From a bacterium (GTDB lineage: Bacteria; Zhuqueibacterota; Zhuqueibacteria; Residuimicrobiales; Oceaniaggregativiventaceae): 64,000 nt of DNA. Positions 5,978 to 34,147 of the stretch are shown here, piece after piece. How positions within the stretch are numbered: the stretch's first letter is position 1; every line of letters begins with the position of its first letter. Where the stretch lies: NCBI GenBank assembly GCA_029565675.1, contig JAKQNP010000007.1:1-64000 (forward strand), read 5' to 3'. The position numbers and the translations under genes were made by a program. The notes beneath the pieces were generated by a model, which did not search any database, was not told the origin of the DNA, and was given only the letters and a program-made list of their open reading frames with translations.

Positions 5978-6541
5978 ATGGCAAAAAAAGAGTATACGCC
6001 TCGATTGCGCGACTTTTACAAGCAGGAAGTCATCGGCCAGCTGCAGAAGCAATTTCAGTACAAGAATGTGATGCAGGTGCCCCGGCTGGAGAAGATCGTG
6101 CTCAATATCGGCGTGGGTGAGGCCACGGAAAACGCAAAGAATCTGGACGGTGCGGTCGAGGATCTGACCAAGATCGCCGGACAAAAGCCCGTTATTCGCA
6201 AGGCAAAAAAGTCGATTTCAAACTTTAAGTTGCGCGCCGGCATGCCGATCGGCTGCAGCGTTACCTTGCGCGGTGAGCGAATGTACGAGTTTCTCGATCG
6301 GTTGATATCGGTGGCCATTCCGCGGGTGCGCGATTTTCGCGGTTTGCCGATTCGTTTTGATGGCCGCGGCAACTTTAATTTCTCAATGCGTGAACAGATT
6401 GTTTTTCCAGAGATCGACTATGATAAGGTCGACAAGATACGTGGGGTCAATATTACCCTGGTGACGACGGCCAGAAATGATGAAGAGGCCTATGAGTTGC
6501 TGAGCGCCTTTGGCGTGCCCTTTATCAAGAAAAACAAGTAA
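5978..6541 (+). CDS. rplE: 50S ribosomal protein L5
   Basis: 187 aa from ATG 5978, starting [18 protein letters not shown]. The conserved segments [29 protein letters not shown] and [14 protein letters not shown] are all present. L5 binds 5S rRNA and contacts P-site tRNA. A TTG four codons upstream is possible but would place the AAGGA site too close. Confidence 0.97.
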
Positions 6542-6568
6542 CACCACGATAAAACAAAGAGGATTAAA

Positions 6569-6754
6569 TTGGCCAGAAAGTCATTGATCGTCAAATCAAA
6601 AAGAGAACCAAAATTCAAGGTTCGCAAGTATAACCGCTGCTCTCGCTGTGGTCGCCCGCGAGGCTATTATCGCAAATTCGGCCTTTGCCGTCTTTGCTTT
6701 CGGGAATTGGCTCTGCAAGGCCATATACCCGGAGTGACCAAATCCAGTTGGTAA
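6569..6754 (+). CDS. rpsN: 30S ribosomal protein S14, zinc-binding short form
   Basis: 61 aa with a TTG start after an AGAGGA site. This is the short C+ (type Z) S14, with four zinc-ligand cysteines C24, C27, C40 and C43 ([20 protein letters not shown]). Length matches type Z proteins rather than the 90-100 aa zinc-free form. Confidence 0.97.
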
Positions 6755-6805
6755 ATCAATTAACCAGTCGTATTTTCCGCTACAGGTTTGTTAGGGAGAA
6801 AATAG

Positions 6806-7204
6806 ATGTCTAAAACCGATCCCATTGCGGACTATTTGACAAGAATTCGAAACGCAACTCGGGCCAAACACCGCAAGGTCGATATTCCGGCGTCGAATCT
6901 GAAGAAACAGATCACTCGGATTCTGCAGGACGAAAACTATATTCAAAACTTTGTCCTCATCGAGGACGACAAACAGTCCCTTATTCGTATTTACCTCAAA
7001 TACGATCAAGAGGAAAAGAGTGTCATTTCTGGCATAAAGAGAATCAGCAAACCCGGTTTGCGTATCTACGTGGGCAAGAACAAGATCCCGCGGGTTTACA
7101 ACAATCTGGGTGTTTCGATTCTGACCACTTCCCAGGGTTTGATGACTGGCCAGGAAGCTCGGCGTCGCGGTGTGGGTGGCGAAATCCTGTGTCATATTTG
7201 GTAA
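6806..7204 (+). CDS. rpsH: 30S ribosomal protein S8
   Basis: 132 aa. Begins MSKTDPIADYLTRIRNATRA and ends TGQEARRRGVGGEILCHIW, both diagnostic of S8. S8 binds 16S helix 21 and in E. coli represses the spc operon; no obvious mimic site was found here. Ribosome-binding site AGGGAG upstream. Confidence 0.98.
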   Translation: MSKTDPIADYLTRIRNATRAKHRKVDIPASNLKKQITRILQDENYIQNFVLIEDDKQSLIRIYLKYDQEEKSVISGIKRISKPGLRIYVGKNKIPRVYNNLGVSILTTSQGLMTGQEARRRGVGGEILCHIW

Positions 7205-7228
7205 CCGCACACTTGAGAGGAGTCTACA

Positions 7229-7765
7229 GTGTCACGTGTTGGAAAAGCACCCATTCATCTTCCTGAAGGGGTCGAAGTCAAGATAGCCAACTCTGTGGTC
7301 ACGGTCAAAGGACCGAAGGGCGAGTTGTCGTTGCCGATTAATTCAGAAATGATCTTGGACATTGACGGCAATACGGTAACGGTCAAGCGACCGACCGAGA
7401 GCAAAGCGCATCGCAGCATGCACGGTCTGACGCGCACCTTGATCGACAACTGCGTAAAGGGTGTGACCACCGGGTTTGAGAAAAAATTGGAAATCGTCGG
7501 TGTGGGTTTTCGCGCCGAAGTGAAGCCCAAGGGTTTAATGCTCAGCATCGGTTACTCGCATCCCATTTTTTTCGTGCCGCCAGCGGGAATCGAGATCACA
7601 GCGGGCAAAGACAACATCATCACGGTTCGCGGGATCGATCGTCAGTTGGTGGGCCAGGTGGCAGCGAAAATCCGTTCTCAGCGCAAACCCGAACCGTACA
7701 AGGGCAAAGGCTTGCGTTACGTCGGTGAAGTGGTGAGAAGAAAAGCCGGCAAGACTGCGGCCTAA
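7229..7765 (+). CDS. rplF: 50S ribosomal protein L6
   Basis: 178 aa from a GTG start (MSRVGKAPIHLPEGVEVKI) with GAGAGGAG upstream. Two L6 repeats are visible; the C-terminal signature is RKPEPYKGKGLRYVGEVV. L6 lies at the base of the L7/L12 stalk near the sarcin-ricin loop. Confidence 0.98.
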   Translation: MSRVGKAPIHLPEGVEVKIANSVVTVKGPKGELSLPINSEMILDIDGNTVTVKRPTESKAHRSMHGLTRTLIDNCVKGVTTGFEKKLEIVGVGFRAEVKPKGLMLSIGYSHPIFFVPPAGIEITAGKDNIITVRGIDRQLVGQVAAKIRSQRKPEPYKGKGLRYVGEVVRRKAGKTAA

Positions 7766-7792
7766 CCTAAACCTCAAAGAGTAGAGTTTGCT

Positions 7793-8167
7793 ATGTCAGT
7801 CAATCATAATACCAAACAAGCGGCGCGGGAGAAGCGGCATCGTCACATCCGCAAGCAGATCAGCGGAACGAATGATCGTCCAAGGCTGATCGTCTACCGC
7901 AGCAGCAAACACATCTATGCGCAAATAGTCGATGATTCCAAACAGGTTACCTTGCTCGGCGTGTCGACGCGATCCAAAGCACTGCAATCTGAACTTGCAG
8001 CTGCCAAAGGCAAGGTTGAACGCGCACGGCTGGTCGGCAAGCATCTGGCAGCAACGGCCAAGGACAAGAAAATCGAACGCATCATTTTCGATCGCGGCGG
8101 TTATTTGTATCATGGTCGAGTCAAAGCGCTGGCCGAAGGCGCCCGTGAAGGCGGATTGGAGTTCTAG
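7793..8167 (+). CDS. rplR: 50S ribosomal protein L18
   Basis: 124 aa. Contains RLIVYRSSKHIYAQIVDD and the C-terminal FDRGGYLYHGRVKALAEGAR motif. Binds 5S rRNA together with L5 in the central protuberance. Normal length and operon position. Confidence 0.98.
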   Translation: MSVNHNTKQAAREKRHRHIRKQISGTNDRPRLIVYRSSKHIYAQIVDDSKQVTLLGVSTRSKALQSELAAAKGKVERARLVGKHLAATAKDKKIERIIFDRGGYLYHGRVKALAEGAREGGLEF

Positions 8168-8210
8168 AAGCTAACGGTTCGTGTCAACCCCAAGCATGAG
8201 GATGAGTAAC

Positions 8211-8753
8211 TTGGAGAAACGAATTAATCCCAATGAATTAGAGTTGAAAGAAAAGGTCGTCCATGTCAACCGAGTCGCAAAGGTGGTCAAGGGTGGACGG
8301 CGTTTCAGCTTTAATGCGATCGTGGTCGTCGGCGACGGCAAAGGCCATGTCGGTGTGGGTCTGGGCAAGGCGAACGAAGTGACCGATTCGATTTCCAAAG
8401 GAACGGAAGCGGCGAAGAAGAACATCATTGAAGTACCGCTGCTCAACGGCACCCTGCCGCATGAAATCGAAGGCAAATTCGGAGCTGGTCGGGTTTACAT
8501 AAAACCTGCGTCACCGGGTACAGGGGTTATCGCGGGCGGGCCGGTACGCGCCATTATGGAGGCCTTGGGAGTGACCGATGTGCTGACCAAGTCGCGCGGT
8601 TCGGCAAATCCGCACAACATGATCAAGGCGACCATGATGGCGTTGGAGAATATGATGAGTGTCGAACAGATCGCCCGCAAGCGCAGCATGCCGATCATGC
8701 GGGTTTTTAATACCGATCCCAAACAAAACAAGCCGGAACAAGAAGCGAATTAG
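8211..8753 (+). CDS. rpsE: 30S ribosomal protein S5
   Basis: 180 aa from a TTG at 8211, which has GAGG at 8198-8201 nine bases upstream. In-frame GTG 8181 and ATG 8202 exist, but the first lacks a ribosome-binding site and the second sits directly on the GAGG. The N-terminal S5 domain ([19 protein letters not shown]) and the C-terminal fold ([18 protein letters not shown]) are clear. S5 acts in decoding fidelity and mRNA unwinding. Start choice is moderate, identity certain. Confidence 0.95.
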
Positions 8754-8763
8754 GTAAGGTGCA

Positions 8764-8964
8764 ATGACAGCGAAAAAGAAAGTCAAAGAGATCAGAATCA
8801 CCCTGATCAAGAGCACGATCGGCTGCCTGGCAAAGCAGAAAGCGACAGCCAAGGCCTTGGGATTTCACAAGATGCATAGCAGCGTCGTCCACGGCGACAC
8901 GCCGGTCATTCGCGGAATGATCAACTGCATATCGCACCTGGTCAAGGTCGAGGACGTAAAATAA
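8764..8964 (+). CDS. rpmD: 50S ribosomal protein L30
   Basis: 66 aa. Contains ITLIKSTIGCLAKQKATAKA, the L30 signature, and ends VIRGMINCISHLVKVEDVK. Presence of L30 is variable among bacteria; here it holds its standard place between rpsE and rplO. Confidence 0.96.
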   Translation: MTAKKKVKEIRITLIKSTIGCLAKQKATAKALGFHKMHSSVVHGDTPVIRGMINCISHLVKVEDVK

Positions 8965-9002
8965 TTACCCAATTGGTTGAATCGAGACAAGCTGAGGCAC
9001 GA

Positions 9003-9437
9003 ATGGATTTATCAAGTTTGACATATGCTCCCGGTTCTACAAAGGACCGCAAACGCGTCGGCCGGGGTGGCTCGCGTGGGAAACAATCCGGCAAAGGACA
9101 CAAGGGGCAAAAATCCCGCTCTGGCGCCAAATTGCGCCCCTGGTTTGAAGGCGGTCAGATGCCGATTCAGCGCCGTCTCCCCAAGCGCGGTTTTTTGAAT
9201 TTTGCCCGCACCGAGTATCAGGTGGTCAACATTGGTGACCTGGCCAAATTGGCCGACGGCATGGAAGTTACGCCTGAAGTGTTGTACGACACCGGTCTGA
9301 TCAGAAAACCGAATCAACCCGTAAAGATTCTGGGTGACGGCGAGTTGAAGAAGAAACTCATCGTCACGGCGCACCGCTTTAGCGAAACCGCAAAGGCCAA
9401 AATCGAGAAAGCAGGCGGGAGGGCCACCACCCTATGA
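9003..9437 (+). CDS. rplO: 50S ribosomal protein L15
   Basis: 144 aa from ATG 9003, preceded by GAGG at 8994-8997. Starts MDLSSLTYAPGSTKDRKRVG with the glycine-rich RGGSRGKQSGKGHKGQKSR segment that threads into 23S rRNA. An upstream TTG at 8973 would add ten non-homologous residues. Its last codons overlap secY by four bases. Confidence 0.97.
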   Translation: MDLSSLTYAPGSTKDRKRVGRGGSRGKQSGKGHKGQKSRSGAKLRPWFEGGQMPIQRRLPKRGFLNFARTEYQVVNIGDLAKLADGMEVTPEVLYDTGLIRKPNQPVKILGDGELKKKLIVTAHRFSETAKAKIEKAGGRATTL

Positions 9438-10765
9438 TGTCGAGCGTCCAAAGCATTTTCAAGATTCCCGAGCTCAAGCGGAAAATCTTGTTCACCGCCA
9501 TCATTTTAATCGTCTATCGAATCGGCGGCCATGTGCCTGTTCCTGGAATCAATGCTCAGGCACTGTTGAATTTTTTCGAGTCGCAGCAGCGCGGCTTGTT
9601 GGGTTTGTATGATCTTTTTGCCGGCGGCGCTTTCAGCCGTGCAACGGTTTTTGCCCTCGGCATTATGCCCTACATTTCCGCCTCAATCATTATTCAACTT
9701 CTCGGTGCAGTTTTTCCCTATTTTCAAAAACTGCAAAAAGAAGGCGAACAAGGTCGCAAAAAGATTACCCAGCTTACCCGTTACGGAACAGTGCTGATCT
9801 CCGCCTTGCAAGGGTATGGCGTGAGCGTTTTTCTCGAACGAATCGGCATGACCGCCACTGGCGAGCTGGTCGTACCTGCTCCGGGATACGGTTTTCGCCT
9901 GCTCACAGTTTTGACTTTGACTTGCGGCACCGTGTTGATCATGTGGCTTGGCGAGCAGATCACCGAACGCGGTATAGGCAATGGTATTTCGCTGATCATC
10001 TTTATCGGTATCATTGCGCGTTTTCCGAATTCGGTTTTCAATGAAATCCAGCAAGTCATTCACGGCAATCGCACGCTGATCGTCGAACTGGTGTTGTGGG
10101 CGCTGTTCGTTGGAACCATTGCGGGCAGCATTTTGCTGACCCAGGGCATGCGCAAGATACCGGTTCAGTATGCCAAACGGGTGATCGGCCGTAAAGTTTA
10201 TGGCGGCCAATCGACTCATATCCCTCTGCGGGTCAATACCGCAGGCGTGATGCCGATCATTTTTGCCCAATCGATTCTTTTCATTCCGCAGACGATCGTG
10301 CAGTTTTTCCCGAACAGCGATTTCATGCAATCGATCAATCTGCTCTTCGATTACCAGTCGTGGGTCTATTGGATTGTTTACGGTTTGATGATCGTTTTCT
10401 TTACCTATTTTTACACCGCCATCGCCTTTAATCCTGTCGATGTGGCGGACAATATGAAAAAATACGGCGGATTTATTCCGGGCGTGCGTCCGGGTAAAAA
10501 AACCGCAGAGTATATCGATAACATTTTGACGCGCATCACCTTGCCAGGATCAATCTTTCTGGCAGTTATTGCGGTGTTTCCGTCTTTTATCACCAAGTTT
10601 ACCAACGTTTCATACGATTTTGCCAGTTTTTACGGTGGCACATCGCTGCTGATTGTTGTCGGGGTGGCACTCGACACGCTGCAGCAGATCGAGTCGCATC
10701 TTTTGATGCGCCATTATGACGGCTTCATGAAGAGCGGCAAGATTCGCGGGCGGAGAAGATTCTAA
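9434..10765 (+). CDS. secY: Protein translocase subunit SecY
   Basis: 443 aa, the pore-forming subunit of the Sec translocon. The ten hydrophobic segments expected are present, starting at about residue 17 (ILFTAIILIVYRIGGHVPVPG). Conserved cytoplasmic loop text includes AKRVIGRKVYGGQSTHIPLR and, before TM9-10, GGFIPGVRPGKKTAEYID. Translation is coupled to rplO by an ATGA overlap. The spc-operon location is standard. Confidence 0.98.
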   Translation: MMSSVQSIFKIPELKRKILFTAIILIVYRIGGHVPVPGINAQALLNFFESQQRGLLGLYDLFAGGAFSRATVFALGIMPYISASIIIQLLGAVFPYFQKLQKEGEQGRKKITQLTRYGTVLISALQGYGVSVFLERIGMTATGELVVPAPGYGFRLLTVLTLTCGTVLIMWLGEQITERGIGNGISLIIFIGIIARFPNSVFNEIQQVIHGNRTLIVELVLWALFVGTIAGSILLTQGMRKIPVQYAKRVIGRKVYGGQSTHIPLRVNTAGVMPIIFAQSILFIPQTIVQFFPNSDFMQSINLLFDYQSWVYWIVYGLMIVFFTYFYTAIAFNPVDVADNMKKYGGFIPGVRPGKKTAEYIDNILTRITLPGSIFLAVIAVFPSFITKFTNVSYDFASFYGGTSLLIVVGVALDTLQQIESHLLMRHYDGFMKSGKIRGRRRF

Positions 10766-10781
10766 AGAGATCGGGAAGCAA

Positions 10782-11438
10782 ATGCGGTTGATTTTTCTTG
10801 GAGCTCCGGGATCCGGCAAAGGAACACAAGCAGCAATGCTGGCTCAGAGCTATGGCATCCCACAGATATCGACCGGCGATATTCTCCGCAAGGCGGTCAA
10901 AGAAGGAACAGCTTTGGGCGAGAAGGCCAAGGCGATCATGGCAAAGGGCGAACTGGTGCCGGATGAGATCATTCTGGAGTTGATTCGGCAGCGTTTGGCC
11001 GAGGCGGATTGCAAGAAAGGTTATATTCTCGACGGTTTTCCGCGCACCCTGCAACAAGCCGAAGGACTGGAGCGGTTTTTGGGCGCTAAATCGATTCAGG
11101 CTGCCATTCTGATCGATGTACAGCCCGAGACTCTAATCAGCCGCATTACCAGCAGGCGCGTGTGTGTCGACTGTGGTGAAACGTACAATCTCTTCACCGA
11201 TCCACCGCCTGCCGACAGCCGTTGTCGGCGCTGCGGCGGCCAGGTCATTCAGCGCCAGGACGACAGCGAAGCAACGGTGCGCAATCGCCTGCAAGTGTAT
11301 GAAGAAAAGACTGCGCCGTTGATCGATTTTTATCGTCAGCAGCGGGTTTTGTTTCGCGTCGACGGCGAGGCTTCGGTGGACCAGGTTTACCAACAGATCG
11401 TCTCTGTGGTGCAACAGATGGCTGGTGAAATTCGATGA
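10782..11438 (+). CDS. adk: Adenylate kinase, long form with Cys4 lid
   Basis: 218 aa, catalyses AMP + ATP to 2 ADP. P-loop GAPGSGKGT at residues 7-15, AMP-binding TGDILR near 32, and DGFPRTLQQA near 85. The LID domain has four cysteines, C128, C131, C148 and C151, in the pattern of structural zinc binding. Its end overlaps map by ATGA. Adk downstream of secY is the common bacterial arrangement. Confidence 0.97.
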   Translation: MRLIFLGAPGSGKGTQAAMLAQSYGIPQISTGDILRKAVKEGTALGEKAKAIMAKGELVPDEIILELIRQRLAEADCKKGYILDGFPRTLQQAEGLERFLGAKSIQAAILIDVQPETLISRITSRRVCVDCGETYNLFTDPPPADSRCRRCGGQVIQRQDDSEATVRNRLQVYEEKTAPLIDFYRQQRVLFRVDGEASVDQVYQQIVSVVQQMAGEIR

Positions 11439-12184
11439 TCGCCATTCGCACAGCTGCCGAGATCGAAAAGATTGCCCATAGTGCGCTTCTGGTCAGCGAA
11501 GCGCTGGATCTGGCTGGATCCGTAATCAAGCCCGGAATGACCACCCGCGAGATCGATGCTGTGGTTGATGATCTCATCTGTTCTCGAGGAGCTCGGCCCG
11601 CTTTCAAGGGCTTCAACGGCTATCCGGCGGCCAGCTGTATTTCGATCGATGAAGAGGTTGTGCACGGCATTCCAGGCGACAAGGTGATTCGGGAAGGGCA
11701 AATCGTCAGCGTCGATATCGGCGTCGAATGGGAAGGATACTATGGCGATGCGGCCCGCACATTTTCGGTAGGCGCAGTTTCCGCAGAAAAGCAAAGGTTA
11801 ATGGATGTCACACTCACCGCGTTGCTTGAAGGTGTGGATCAGGCGCGGGAGGGGAATCGGTTGTACGACATCGGATATGCCATTCAAAATAAAGTGGAAG
11901 AAGCAGGATTCTCAGTGGTTCGTGATCTGGTAGGACATGGGATCGGCCAATCCCTGCACGAACCGCCGCAAATTCCGAATTATGGTCACCCTCATCGAGG
12001 GGCCAGGCTTTGCAGCGGTATGGTTTTCGCTATCGAACCGATGGTCAACATGGGCACATGGGAAGTGGAAACATTGGAAGACGGTTGGACCGTAATTACG
12101 GCTGACCGATTGCCGTCTGCTCATTTTGAACACACAATCGTGATCACCGAAGGCGATCCAATCATTCTAAGCAAGGGGAATTGA
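11435..12184 (+). CDS. map: Methionine aminopeptidase, type I
   Basis: 249 aa. Removes the initiator Met from nascent proteins. Metal ligands are visible in [19 protein letters not shown] (two Asp), [10 protein letters not shown] (His), AIEPMVNMG (Glu) and the C-terminal Glu near [10 protein letters not shown]. No N-terminal zinc-finger extension, so type Ia-like. Coupled to adk by a four-base overlap. Confidence 0.97.
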
Positions 12185-31376: not shown

Positions 31377-33584
31377 ATGAAATTCTTTACCCAAGTTTTG
31401 CGACTTGCCTTGGCAGCAATTCTGCTGTTTTGCCCTCTGCTTTTTGCCCAGCAGGAAAAGGATAGAGAAATTAAAACTGCGGTGCACGAAGAACCTGCAG
31501 ACCAGAAGATCGCTGCCGTTGGCGCAACCACTTCTATCCCTCAAAAAATCGACTATCAGGGATATCTGGCCGACGCAGGAGGATTTCCCGTTGTCGGCTC
31601 GATCGATGTCGTTTTCAGCCTTTGGGATGCAGCCAGTGACGGCAACAAGCTATGGGAAGCAACCCGCACATTGGAGGTTAACAAAGGCTATTTCAACTGC
31701 GAACTGGGTACGGAAAATCCCTTTCCGCCAAATTTGTTTTCCGGAGCAGAACGTTATCTGCAGTTGACCATTAACGGCGAAAATTTATCCCCTCGAAAAT
31801 CCCTCGCCAGTGTTCCTTTTGCTTTTCAAAGCGACAATACTGACCGCTTGCAAGGCCATTCTGCCGGCAGCTTTTACCTTCGCACCCAAGCCGATGACCA
31901 CAGCCTCAACCGCATCGATGCCTTCAGTCTGGGCGGCTATCTTGCAACGGCTTTTGCCACCCGCGAGCAGAACGATGCGCGTTATCTGCGCCACGGAGAA
32001 GCCAATTCGATAAGCAGCAATATGATAGAGGATGGCACGATTCAGATTCAGGATATCGGCTTTCAGCTGGGACAGGGCACAATAACCGGGATTAATGCGC
32101 TCTCCGGCTTGAGCGGCGGTGGAACGACAGGAACCGTTGGACTATCGTTGCATGAAGATTATCTGACCGGTCAGGCGTTTGATTCGCGATTTGTACGCAA
32201 GGGTGAGATCGGTGCGATTACCGCTGCGATGATCGGGAACAGTCAAATTACCGGCGAACAGGTAAAAAACGGCACTCTAGGCGAAGAGGATTTCAATTTT
32301 GCAGTCGGCAAAATCACGCAAGTCGTCGCGGGTTTAGGGTTGCAGGGCGGCGGTACGAGTGGCAACATTCTGATCAGCTTGGATCCTGATCTAAAAAACG
32401 GCACGGCGTTTAATTCCATTTTTGTCAACACCAATGAATCGAATTCCATTTCCGGCGAGATGGTCATCGACGGGACCCTGACCAGCGCTGATATCAAGGA
32501 CGGAACGATTCAAGCGGTGGATCTGGCGACTGCCGTCGGCGATATTACCGCCGTCAATGCCGGAACAGGAATGCTGGGAGGAGGAACAAGCGGTGCTGTG
32601 ACGTTGCAGATTGCCCCTGAATATGAAAGCGGCACCCACTACGACAGCCGGTTCGTGCGGCAAGGCCAGGTCGATGCGATAACCAGCAATATGGTCAAGG
32701 ATTATTCCTTGCAGCCCACCGATCTGGGATTTGCGGTAGGCGATGTTACAGGCATTATAGCCCAACGAGGCTTGCTGGGTGGCGGTCCATCCGGAGATAT
32801 TACCCTGATGCTCGCCGATGATCATTTTAGCGGCCGAGCTTTTGACAACCGTTTTGTCAATGAAAATCAGCTCGATGCCATCAATACCAATATGATCCAG
32901 CCAGGCGCTGTCAGCAGCAACAAAATTGCCCCTGCTGCTCTGACAGCCGACCATTTCCCGGCCTCTCTTGCCTATGTGCGCAGTCAGCGCTCCAAGGCGG
33001 TTTTGGCCGTGCAGAATCAGGACTCTGCTCCGAGTTCGATTGGCCTGTTCGGCAACGGGCCGATCGGGGTGGCCGGAAGCGGCGACATCGCCGTTAAAGG
33101 CGAAGGATTGCTCTACGGCGTGCAGGCGATTTGCAGCAATGCCGGCGGATATGCCTTAAAAGTCGAAGGCCGGGCGACTTGCAGCACCGGCGGTTGGGCC
33201 GATTTGGCCGAGTTTCTCTACGGCAGTGAAATTTTGGAAAGCGGCGATGTCGTGGTGATCGATGAACAGAGCGAAAATGCGCTTCGAAGATGCCGTCAAC
33301 CCTACGACACCCGTGTTGCCGGAATAATCTCCACCAATCCGACCCTGACGGTCGGTCATCTGGCGAATGCCGACAATGGCTATCCGCTCGCCCTTACCGG
33401 CGTGGTGCCTTGCAAAGTCACTGCCCACTCGGCGCCTATCCGACCAGGCGATCTGTTGACGACCTCAGATGTGCCTGGCCATGCCATGAAAGCAGTAAAT
33501 CCGCCCTATGGCACAATCATCGGAAAGGCACTCGAAGCGCTTGCATCGGGCACCGGTGTGATCAACGTTTTGGTTAAAATTTGA
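31377..33584 (+). CDS. Secreted repeat protein resembling phage tail fibres
   Basis: 735 aa. Signal peptide MKFFTQVLRLALAAILLFCP up to FAQ. Residues about 55-160 form a domain common in FCB secreted proteins (IDYQGYLADAGGFPVVGSID; KGYFNCELGT). From 236 four tandem repeats follow, each opening ITxxxAxxGLxGGGTSG-like and holding FDSRFVR or FDNRFVN. Residues about 610-735 (ADLAEFLYGSEILESGDVVV, CKVTAHSAPIRPGDLLTTSD) resemble C-terminal domains of tail-fibre / appendage proteins. Probably an extracellular fibrous protein. Function unknown. Confidence 0.75.
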   Translation: MKFFTQVLRLALAAILLFCPLLFAQQEKDREIKTAVHEEPADQKIAAVGATTSIPQKIDYQGYLADAGGFPVVGSIDVVFSLWDAASDGNKLWEATRTLEVNKGYFNCELGTENPFPPNLFSGAERYLQLTINGENLSPRKSLASVPFAFQSDNTDRLQGHSAGSFYLRTQADDHSLNRIDAFSLGGYLATAFATREQNDARYLRHGEANSISSNMIEDGTIQIQDIGFQLGQGTITGINALSGLSGGGTTGTVGLSLHEDYLTGQAFDSRFVRKGEIGAITAAMIGNSQITGEQVKNGTLGEEDFNFAVGKITQVVAGLGLQGGGTSGNILISLDPDLKNGTAFNSIFVNTNESNSISGEMVIDGTLTSADIKDGTIQAVDLATAVGDITAVNAGTGMLGGGTSGAVTLQIAPEYESGTHYDSRFVRQGQVDAITSNMVKDYSLQPTDLGFAVGDVTGIIAQRGLLGGGPSGDITLMLADDHFSGRAFDNRFVNENQLDAINTNMIQPGAVSSNKIAPAALTADHFPASLAYVRSQRSKAVLAVQNQDSAPSSIGLFGNGPIGVAGSGDIAVKGEGLLYGVQAICSNAGGYALKVEGRATCSTGGWADLAEFLYGSEILESGDVVVIDEQSENALRRCRQPYDTRVAGIISTNPTLTVGHLANADNGYPLALTGVVPCKVTAHSAPIRPGDLLTTSDVPGHAMKAVNPPYGTIIGKALEALASGTGVINVLVKI
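32082..32943 (+). repeat. Four tandem protein repeats inside the tail-fibre-like gene
   Basis: Units start at 32082, 32313, 32544 and 32745. The first two are exactly 231 bases (77 codons), the third 201 (67 codons), the fourth about 199. Each has a GGG(T/P)(S/T)G turn about ten residues in and an (F/Y)(D/N)SxFV-type motif about 30 residues in. A partial fifth unit precedes them (about 31960-32081, ARYLRHGEANSISSNMIEDG). Conservation is at protein rather than DNA level. Confidence 0.8.
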
Positions 33585-33610
33585 CCGCCAACCACACCAG
33601 AGGCCACACC

Positions 33611-34147
33611 ATGAAGCAGACCACATTTACCGGCTTGATTCTTTTGTTCGGCTTGGTTTGTCTGATCGTTGCGCGCCAAGCCGTTGCGCAGAGCTACCAG
33701 CTCTCGAGACAACAGCTGCAATCGGTGAGCGGAACAGCGGAAACGCCGAATTATCGCCTTCGACACGGATTCGGCGTATCTGATATGGGCAGCATGCGCA
33801 GCGATCGGTTTAAAGTTGGATTGGCAACCCGCGTGCAACAGATTGCCAATGACCAACCTGTCATACCCTCGCGGTTCGTTTTACAGCAGAACTATCCCAA
33901 TCCTTTTAATCAGAGCACTGCGTTCGTTTATGATCTGCCTCATGCGGTTCAACTGCGTCTGGTGCTCTACTCGATTCTCGGACAACAAGTCCGCATCTTG
34001 TACGATGGCGACCATTCTGCAGGAAGATTTTTATTTCTCTTTGACGGAACCGACAGCGAAGGTTCACCATTGTCAAGCGGACTCTACCTGCTGCAAATGA
34101 TTGCTGGCGGCTACAACCAAACGATCAAATTGTCCATTGTCCGCTAG
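33611..34147 (+). CDS. Small secreted protein with T9SS type A / FlgD-like C-terminal tail
   Basis: 178 aa from ATG 33611, which opens a signal peptide (MKQTTFTGLILLFGLVCLIV, then AVAQ). The C-terminal 80 residues have QQNYPNPFNQSTAF, LYSILGQQVRILYDG and SGLYLLQMIAGG, the pattern of type IX secretion sorting domains and related FlgD-like Ig tails. The 70-residue middle part (SGTAETPNYRLRHGFGVSD) recurs in FCB surface proteins. It follows the tail-fibre-like gene by 26 bases and may be exported with it. Confidence 0.75.
   Translation: MKQTTFTGLILLFGLVCLIVARQAVAQSYQLSRQQLQSVSGTAETPNYRLRHGFGVSDMGSMRSDRFKVGLATRVQQIANDQPVIPSRFVLQQNYPNPFNQSTAFVYDLPHAVQLRLVLYSILGQQVRILYDGDHSAGRFLFLFDGTDSEGSPLSSGLYLLQMIAGGYNQTIKLSIVR

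Follow-up and report, generated by a model that had tools for sequence, protein, structure and literature searches.

Genes for a fibre resembling mosaic adhesive trimers and for a small partner with a type IX secretion tail lie side by side in Zhuqueibacterota, and similar pairs occur in other bacterial lineages

Trimeric surface fibres with exchangeable tips have been described in Bdellovibrio as mosaic adhesive trimers (MATs), a peptidase S74 chaperone end being present in 13 of 21 of them (Caulton et al. 2024, PMC10769870). According to the same source these fibres serve prey recognition, and its Discussion notes that what the MAT N-domain binds at the surface still awaits identification. 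The present analysis concerns two adjoining genes in a 64,000-nucleotide stretch of contig JAKQNP010000007.1 (assembly GCA_029565675.1, Zhuqueibacterota; hereafter the window), which encode a MAT-like fibre and a small partner protein with a sorting tail of the type IX secretion system (T9SS). MAT-like fibres are already known; what is new is the conserved, so far unexplained partner, whose short domain was given the name GQP in this analysis. In the main text of PMC10769870 the terms 'type IX', 'operon' and 'neighbouring' have 0 occurrences and such a partner is not mentioned there; the pairing of a fibre with a GQP partner was not found in a search confined to open PMC papers. A surface adhesin with a specific partner for its anchorage is also known from SprB/SprF, in which an outer-membrane PorP-like barrel acts as the partner of an adhesin that itself bears a type B tail, and T9SS type A tails have been linked to lipopolysaccharide (PMC9143113). 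At the locus studied here, unlike in SprB/SprF, it is the proposed anchor that carries a tail, of type A, and the fibre has none.

An initial annotation of the window, made from the sequence alone, had proposed two open reading frames (ORFs) at 31377-34147 separated by 26 bases, and both are present, with a gap of 26 bases between the end of the fibre ORF and the ATG of the partner. The pair itself was correctly recognised at that stage; the MAT family was left unnamed and the domain that the partner possesses besides its tail was overlooked. The features of the locus are as follows.

31377..33584, + strand: MAT-like fibre gene, 735 aa (ATG-start ORF; NF053851 match, with orthologues matching in 11/11 at E <=0.1)
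31377..31448, + strand: signal-peptide-like hydrophobic N-terminus of the fibre, residues 1-24 (sequence; AF2 helix 2-24)
31533..31886, + strand: MAT N-domain of the fibre, residues 53-170 (alignment; AF2 predicted local distance difference test, pLDDT, about 76-89 for residues 61-140)
32007..32900, + strand: repeat shaft of the fibre, four units, residues 211-508 (motif spacing 77, 77, 67; shuffles; low-confidence model)
33165..33581, + strand: C-terminal tip of the fibre, residues 597-735, with a predicted fold like phage cement and the phi29 gp12 chaperone (VIA Z 8.8 to 10.1; PF09956 E 0.002, under cut-off)
33611..34147, + strand: partner gene, 178 aa, with a GQP-like domain and a T9SS tail (ORF from an internal ATG; adjoins the fibre gene in 11/11 genomes)
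33611..33688, + strand: signal-peptide-like N-terminus of the partner, residues 1-26 (sequence; AF2 helix 3-25)
33701..33817, + strand: GQP domain in the partner (a divergent copy), residues 31-69 (profile comparison; weak by single sequence; AF2 pLDDT <50)
33893..34138, + strand: T9SS type A sorting domain of the partner, residues 95-176 (TIGR04183, 32.5 bits; fold like the PorU C-terminal domain)

At the level of the fibre, its sequence identifies the large protein as a relative of the Bdellovibrio MATs. Residues 2-24 are predicted to form a hydrophobic helix, in keeping with the signal peptide initially assigned to this protein, and the region annotated at first as an FCB-type domain matches NF053851, the model of the Bdellovibrio MAT N-domain. 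This is the sole NCBIfam match of the fibre (E 2.2e-6) and its 27.6 bits lie below the curated cut-off of 60 bits, for which reason the fibre is not filed in the NF053851 (Bdello_MAT_N) subfamily; the same model is matched by 11/11 orthologues at E <=0.1, with a best value of 2.8e-10. Two features that define the MAT superfamily are present: a homologous N-domain lies right behind the signal peptide, and different tips, one cement-like and one of S74 type, are found on this common N-domain within the same genome. The fibre therefore resembles the MATs of Bdellovibrio bacteriovorus in its related N-domain behind a signal peptide, its long shaft and its exchangeable tips, some of them S74, as in the second fibre of this genome; it differs from them in a score under the model cut-off, in a different tip and in the GQP partner with a T9SS tail that is encoded alongside. 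No Pfam family matches the fibre at E <=1, including Peptidase_S74 (PF13884) at its C-terminus. Searches of PDB sequences with the fibre, with an orthologue profile and with a tip profile gave no credible relative (best E 0.97, 0.59 and 0.77, respectively). Foldseek with the AF2 model returned one match at E <0.001 (8hdt), and a Bdellovibrio MAT structure does not appear in the VIA match lists, an absence that proves nothing.

The shaft is built from tandem repeats marked by the motif GxGLxGGG at residues 244, 321, 398 and 465, that is, at spacings of 77, 77 and 67. The autocorrelation of residues 206-525 at lag 77 amounts to 0.89 per residue, compared with a maximum of -0.12 in 300 shuffles, and when the units are cut as 77, 77, 77 and 67 aa their pairwise identity is 37-49%. 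The repeats of 77, 77, 67 and about 66 residues reported initially agree with these spacings, the ends of the units being a matter of choice. The full-length AF2 model has a mean pLDDT of 49 and is usable for the N-domain and the tip only, so that the fold of the shaft is left without statement. One orthologue (G006, L043 8792-10849, 658 aa; G numbers denote genomes, G000 being the source genome of the window, and L numbers fetched loci) has about one repeat fewer in the alignment, and from the sequences it seems that shaft length changes by whole units.

The partner begins with a hydrophobic N-terminus (residues 3-25 are a predicted signal-peptide-like helix in the AF2 model) and continues with about 45 residues, which a linker connects to a T9SS type A tail. 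The tail, which had been spotted by its YPNPFN motif, holds QNYPNPFN and scores over the TIGR04183 cut-off of 23 (33.1 bits in the genome search). In structure comparison the best VIA match of the partner model is the Vpr peptidase domain (8jmw, Z 10.2), and the second row places its tail fold next to the PorU C-terminal domain (Z 9.8, root-mean-square deviation 2.4 over 89). The machinery that such a tail requires was proposed at the outset as something to look for elsewhere in the genome, and it is encoded there: SprA (TIGR04189) is matched over cut-off with 686 bits for its main stretch and 897 with its neighbours, PorU (NF033707) is matched over cut-off with 892 bits, and T9SS tails give 130 matches, of which only the last listed falls below cut-off. 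Tail score and genome machinery, two of the marks of a T9SS type A cargo, are thus found for the partner. Three further large proteins with T9SS tails (C62:706554, C62:85057 and C36:22171) match the PorU model under cut-off, at 240-280 bits, and are possibly secreted peptidases of the same clan.

GQP domains span 44-49 residues with the consensus IxxxVxxxGGxxxxSxxxxxxxxxGQPxxxGxxxSxxxxxxxGF and sit behind the signal peptide in the partners that were read, whose frames range from 175 to 1386 aa. Judged by profile comparison, the first ~45 mature residues of the window partner are a divergent copy of this domain. By single sequence the protein reaches 12.8 bits to the GQP model, whereas comparison of a profile built from the 12 orthologous partners with that of GQP gives a probability of 93.6 (E 2e-7, 39/44 columns), at a position behind the signal peptide as in GQP, and 18 control slices reach at most 4.4; it is on this profile-profile comparison that the partner is placed among the GQP-domain proteins, which carry the domain behind a signal peptide. 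When seven partner domains were aligned with MAFFT the window copy was misplaced, and the profile comparison was used instead; in the AF2 model this part has a pLDDT <50. Known families cover the domain poorly. Among 39 GQP copies (48 matches minus those at E >=1e-9 and three others), Pfam matches two, through unrelated families at the chance-like values of E 0.02 and 0.027, and the NCBIfam model PamT (NF058579) matches 11 weakly at E <=0.1 (best 4e-4). The N-terminal part of PamT, a CPR (candidate phyla radiation)-type pilus protein, is what resembles GQP. All of these matches remain far under the 240-bit cut-off, and the window partner has no PamT match at E <=0.1; a paper on PamT was not found in the open PMC literature. 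The likeness extends to a whole partner, at 1.4e-14, in G141, a 0.8 Mb genome that is probably CPR, to judge by its size and the PamT match, and where this PamT-like GQP protein (L137 4907-5668) lies 8.6 kb from a MAT N-domain; the MAT frame concerned (L137 12757-18999) has a Xer-recombinase-like stretch at its start.

The evidence that ties the two proteins together comes from gene linkage. When relatives were searched down to the order (21 genomes, G001-G021), the locus was found to be retained in about half of them; G019 has a cut-off fragment. The fibre gene is directly adjacent to the small gene in 11/11 genomes of the order, 8-45 bases apart in the 9 orthologous loci measured, and the best reading is that they form one unit. 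In G018 the fibre gene is represented by a C-terminal fragment only, and in G001 it is split across two contigs. Co-occurrence of the pair in relatives, which had been put forward as a check, is accordingly seen throughout these genomes and, in a wider form, far beyond the order.

For that wider view, a first set of 119 genomes was searched for the MAT N-domain and GQP. MAT N-domains are present in 59/119 genomes, and GQP gives 81 matches in 46 genomes, 44 of which also have MAT N-domains. Most of these matches (68/81) fall <=8 kb from a MAT N-domain, on the same strand in 68/68. Among the remaining 13, five lie beside cut-off fibre genes (L147, L149, L151 and L155 by model; L144 through an S74-like end recognised by eye) and five lie <=0.6 kb from a contig end (L146, L148, L150, L153, L154). 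A Fisher test on 44 genomes with both, 15 with MAT only and 2 with GQP only gave p 2e-17, a value to be read with the facts that it used 120 genomes as against the 119 searched and that related genomes are not independent. Around the MAT N-domains 65 loci were fetched, one false seed (L048 4089-6440) being dropped; 49 MAT ORFs in them have a GQP ORF <=2 kb away, on the same strand in 49/49, downstream in 40 and upstream in 9. The second MAT of the source genome (C31:13994-17911; L033 5995-9912) belongs to such a pair, with a fibre at 5995-9333 (1113-aa frame) ending in S74 (1.3e-12) and, 4 bases on, a frame of 192 aa with a canonical GQP domain and a T9SS tail. Outside candidate division KSB1, the uncultured group of the source genome, a named pair is that of Ca. 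Fermentibacteria (L061), with a partner frame at 9427-9996 and a fibre frame at 9995-12016. In a further locus (L082 9581-10981, G040:C237) the N-domain region of a MAT gene contains an in-frame TAG, and a GQP ORF comes after the gene, which is either decayed, misassembled or read through.

A simpler account of these neighbourhoods would be a loose clustering of genes for surface proteins, in which the fibre and GQP would be unconnected. T9SS-tail genes are indeed common, as the 130 matches in the source genome illustrate, and those without GQP also occur near MATs (15/56 within 1 kb). However, GQP is tied to MATs and not to T9SS tails in general: it is found in 41/56 T9SS-tail ORFs located <=1 kb from a MAT on the same strand and in 5/37 other T9SS-tail ORFs, 4 of these 5 being within 2 kb of a MAT, and GQP models trained on other genomes only, at a looser threshold, give 40/56 versus 5/37. 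The adherence to one strand (68/68) and the persistence of the pairing where the T9SS tail is missing argue in the same direction, and clustering of this kind is regarded as improbable.

The persistence of the pairing becomes apparent in a second set of 116 genomes around G110, outside the phylum. MAT N-domains occur in 19/116 and GQP in 11/116, all 11 of which also have MATs, and 18/23 GQP matches lie <=5 kb from a MAT on its strand, with one at 8.6 kb; of the others, G119 contributes 2, whose contigs show no MAT match, and G140 another 2, which are weak, partial and distant from any MAT. Five of the 23 matches, all <=5 kb, are shared with the first set, and the distance count used part of the MAT matches (47), leaving out contigs without GQP matches. 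Genome G140, a single contig of 5.04 Mb, contains 23 MAT matches and has 8/10 GQP matches <=3 kb from one (binomial p 8e-14, which assumes random placement). The eight partners there end in T9SS tails (5) or in dockerin-like regions (3; L129, L131, L133), one of the latter having been tested (PF00404, 3e-11). In G142, a genome with no SprA match, the partner frame measures 100 aa and hardly extends beyond the GQP domain. SprA is matched in 8/11 GQP-bearing genomes of this set, over cut-off in 5. Since tips vary (S74 and others) and partner ends vary as well (T9SS tail, dockerin or nothing), what the paired fibres have in common is the N-domain, and what the partners have in common is GQP. The simplest reading is that these two meet; the N-domain is also the part by which all surveyed fibres were recognised.

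Several observations weigh against such a general association. The genome search with the GQP model misses the divergent partner of the window itself, so that the window pair enters none of the GQP counts given above. Three GQP matches of the first set have no fibre nearby (L145, L152, L156), and among the 41 MAT ORFs flanked by >=3 kb on each side, a GQP lies <=2 kb away in 29 cases and is lacking there in 12 (four in G084, two in G110, one in G090 and five within the phylum). Genome G173 has 15 MAT matches (weak) and G123 has 6, both with no GQP, and G084 has 10 with one GQP; other fibre bases must therefore exist. Finally, the distances of GQP and N-domain correlate over 41 pairs with r 0.35, and the partial r is 0.285 for GQP given the tail versus 0.191 for the tail given GQP. 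This correlation indicates shared inheritance without favouring GQP over the tail, and it is not used as proof.

Considering both sides, we give about even credence to a joint reading in which a trimeric MAT-like fibre is held at the cell surface through its N-domain by the GQP domain of its T9SS partner. According to this proposal, the large protein would consist of a Sec signal, the N-domain as base, a repeat shaft and an exchangeable C-terminal tip, assembled into a trimeric fibre. The small protein would be exported by T9SS and fixed on the cell surface via its type A tail, and its GQP domain, just behind the new N-terminus, would hold the fibre by the MAT N-domain. The fibre would then extend outwards so that its tip makes contact with other cells or with surfaces and, by analogy with its relatives, may function as an adhesin.

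The same linkage data fit equally well with a role of the GQP protein as an assembly or export factor, which would meet the fibre in the periplasm, guard or pilot it through the outer membrane with T9SS and perhaps leave afterwards. An argument in its favour is that a T9SS tail is absent from all 72 MAT ORFs considered, which leaves the export of the fibre in need of an explanation. Nevertheless, partners without a T9SS tail are found beside fibres (L129, L131, L133, L138), and many partners have long extra regions, with frames of up to 1386 aa, which suits a displayed protein better. We consider this role rather unlikely, if far from negligible.

The C-terminal tip brings the fibre close to phage proteins, in agreement with the tail-fibre-like C-terminus proposed initially. 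The fold matches that rank best for its model are the HFTV1 capsid chain 8qsy (VIA Z 10.1), the base of the phi29 head fibre 6qyy (Z 10.0), residues 694-854 of phi29 gp12 (3suc; Z 9.6, root-mean-square deviation 2.6 over 107, 20% identity) and the Sf11 capsid chain 9ocb (Z 8.8). The C-terminal domain of phi29 gp12 is described as an intramolecular chaperone that is absent from the virion (PMC9863714). In sequence, the tip matches PF09956 (Phage_cement_2) weakly, at 18.9 bits under a cut-off of 24 bits, and the family is matched by 3/9 orthologous tips at E <=10. The likeness to the gp12 chaperone and to phage cement (3suc, 6qyy, 9ocb; PF09956) thus concerns the fold and this weak match; the differences are that the tip sits on a bacterial, putatively secreted fibre instead of a virion and that its PF09956 score stays under cut-off. 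The cut in phi29 gp12 presumably lies just before the aligned stretch, in which residue 694 of 3suc corresponds to fibre residue 611. By analogy, self-cleavage of the tip would be predicted near residue 608, as a prediction only. On the viral contig L125 (3296-8393; IMGVR_UViG_3300013094_000458) two adjacent fibre-like frames are found, one of 1048 aa ending in a relative of the tip (38% identity) and its neighbour with an S74-like ending by eye; phages therefore carry both kinds of tip too.

Such resemblances raise the question of whether the gene is a prophage remnant that encodes the tail fibre of a phage. Shaft and tip are phage-like: PF09327 is matched by 7/11 fibre orthologues at E <=0.1, the viral contig L063 shares the shaft repeats, and relatives of the tip end fibre-like ORFs on the viral contigs L124-L126. 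Against a prophage remnant speak the intact ORF, its 43-67% identity to the orthologues, the signal-like N-terminus followed by a bacterial N-domain, and the same non-phage neighbourhood in 11 genomes. An MBL (metallo-beta-lactamase)-fold gene comes next after the small gene in 11/11 genomes (Pfam names being those from the window), a ferredoxin gene follows it in 10/11 and KorA/KorB-like genes in 9/11, and a peptidase M24 gene lies upstream of the fibre in 8/11. The contig of G016 ends at the KorA/KorB-like position, that of G015 shows no ferredoxin match in its remaining 1.07 kb, and in G002 the M24 gene is absent although the contig continues. No phage genes were seen beside the fibre orthologues in the 11 genomes of the order. 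The locus is a conserved housekeeping neighbourhood without phage genes, as the initial annotation had noted for the surroundings of the pair, and a prophage origin was considered and rejected as highly improbable. The view of the pair as encoding a host surface fibre rather than prophage debris is in turn supported, given that homologues adjoined by phage genes and a failure of the pair to co-occur were both looked for and the opposite was found.

It is conceivable, though we hold it at somewhat under even chances, that GQP is the part on which MAT fibres generally dock across much of the bacterial domain. It would then be a surface socket that each lineage presents by its own means of export or anchorage (type IX secretion tail, dockerin or none) and that accepts the N-domain of fibres with any tip. 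If so, the GQP socket would supply, for these lineages, the surface element left open by the Bdellovibrio work. The domain is poorly covered by Pfam and weakly by one NCBIfam model, and it accompanies the MAT N-domain from lineage to lineage, exceptions being few, which offers a handle for spotting MAT systems in genomes. The pairing also points to a possible way for type IX secretion to display proteins that lack its signal, and it places genes resembling phage tail fibres in the surface biology of bacteria. GQP is in this sense a concrete candidate for the surface element of the N-domain, and the partner protein may supply the component, so far missing, that keeps such fibres attached to the cell.

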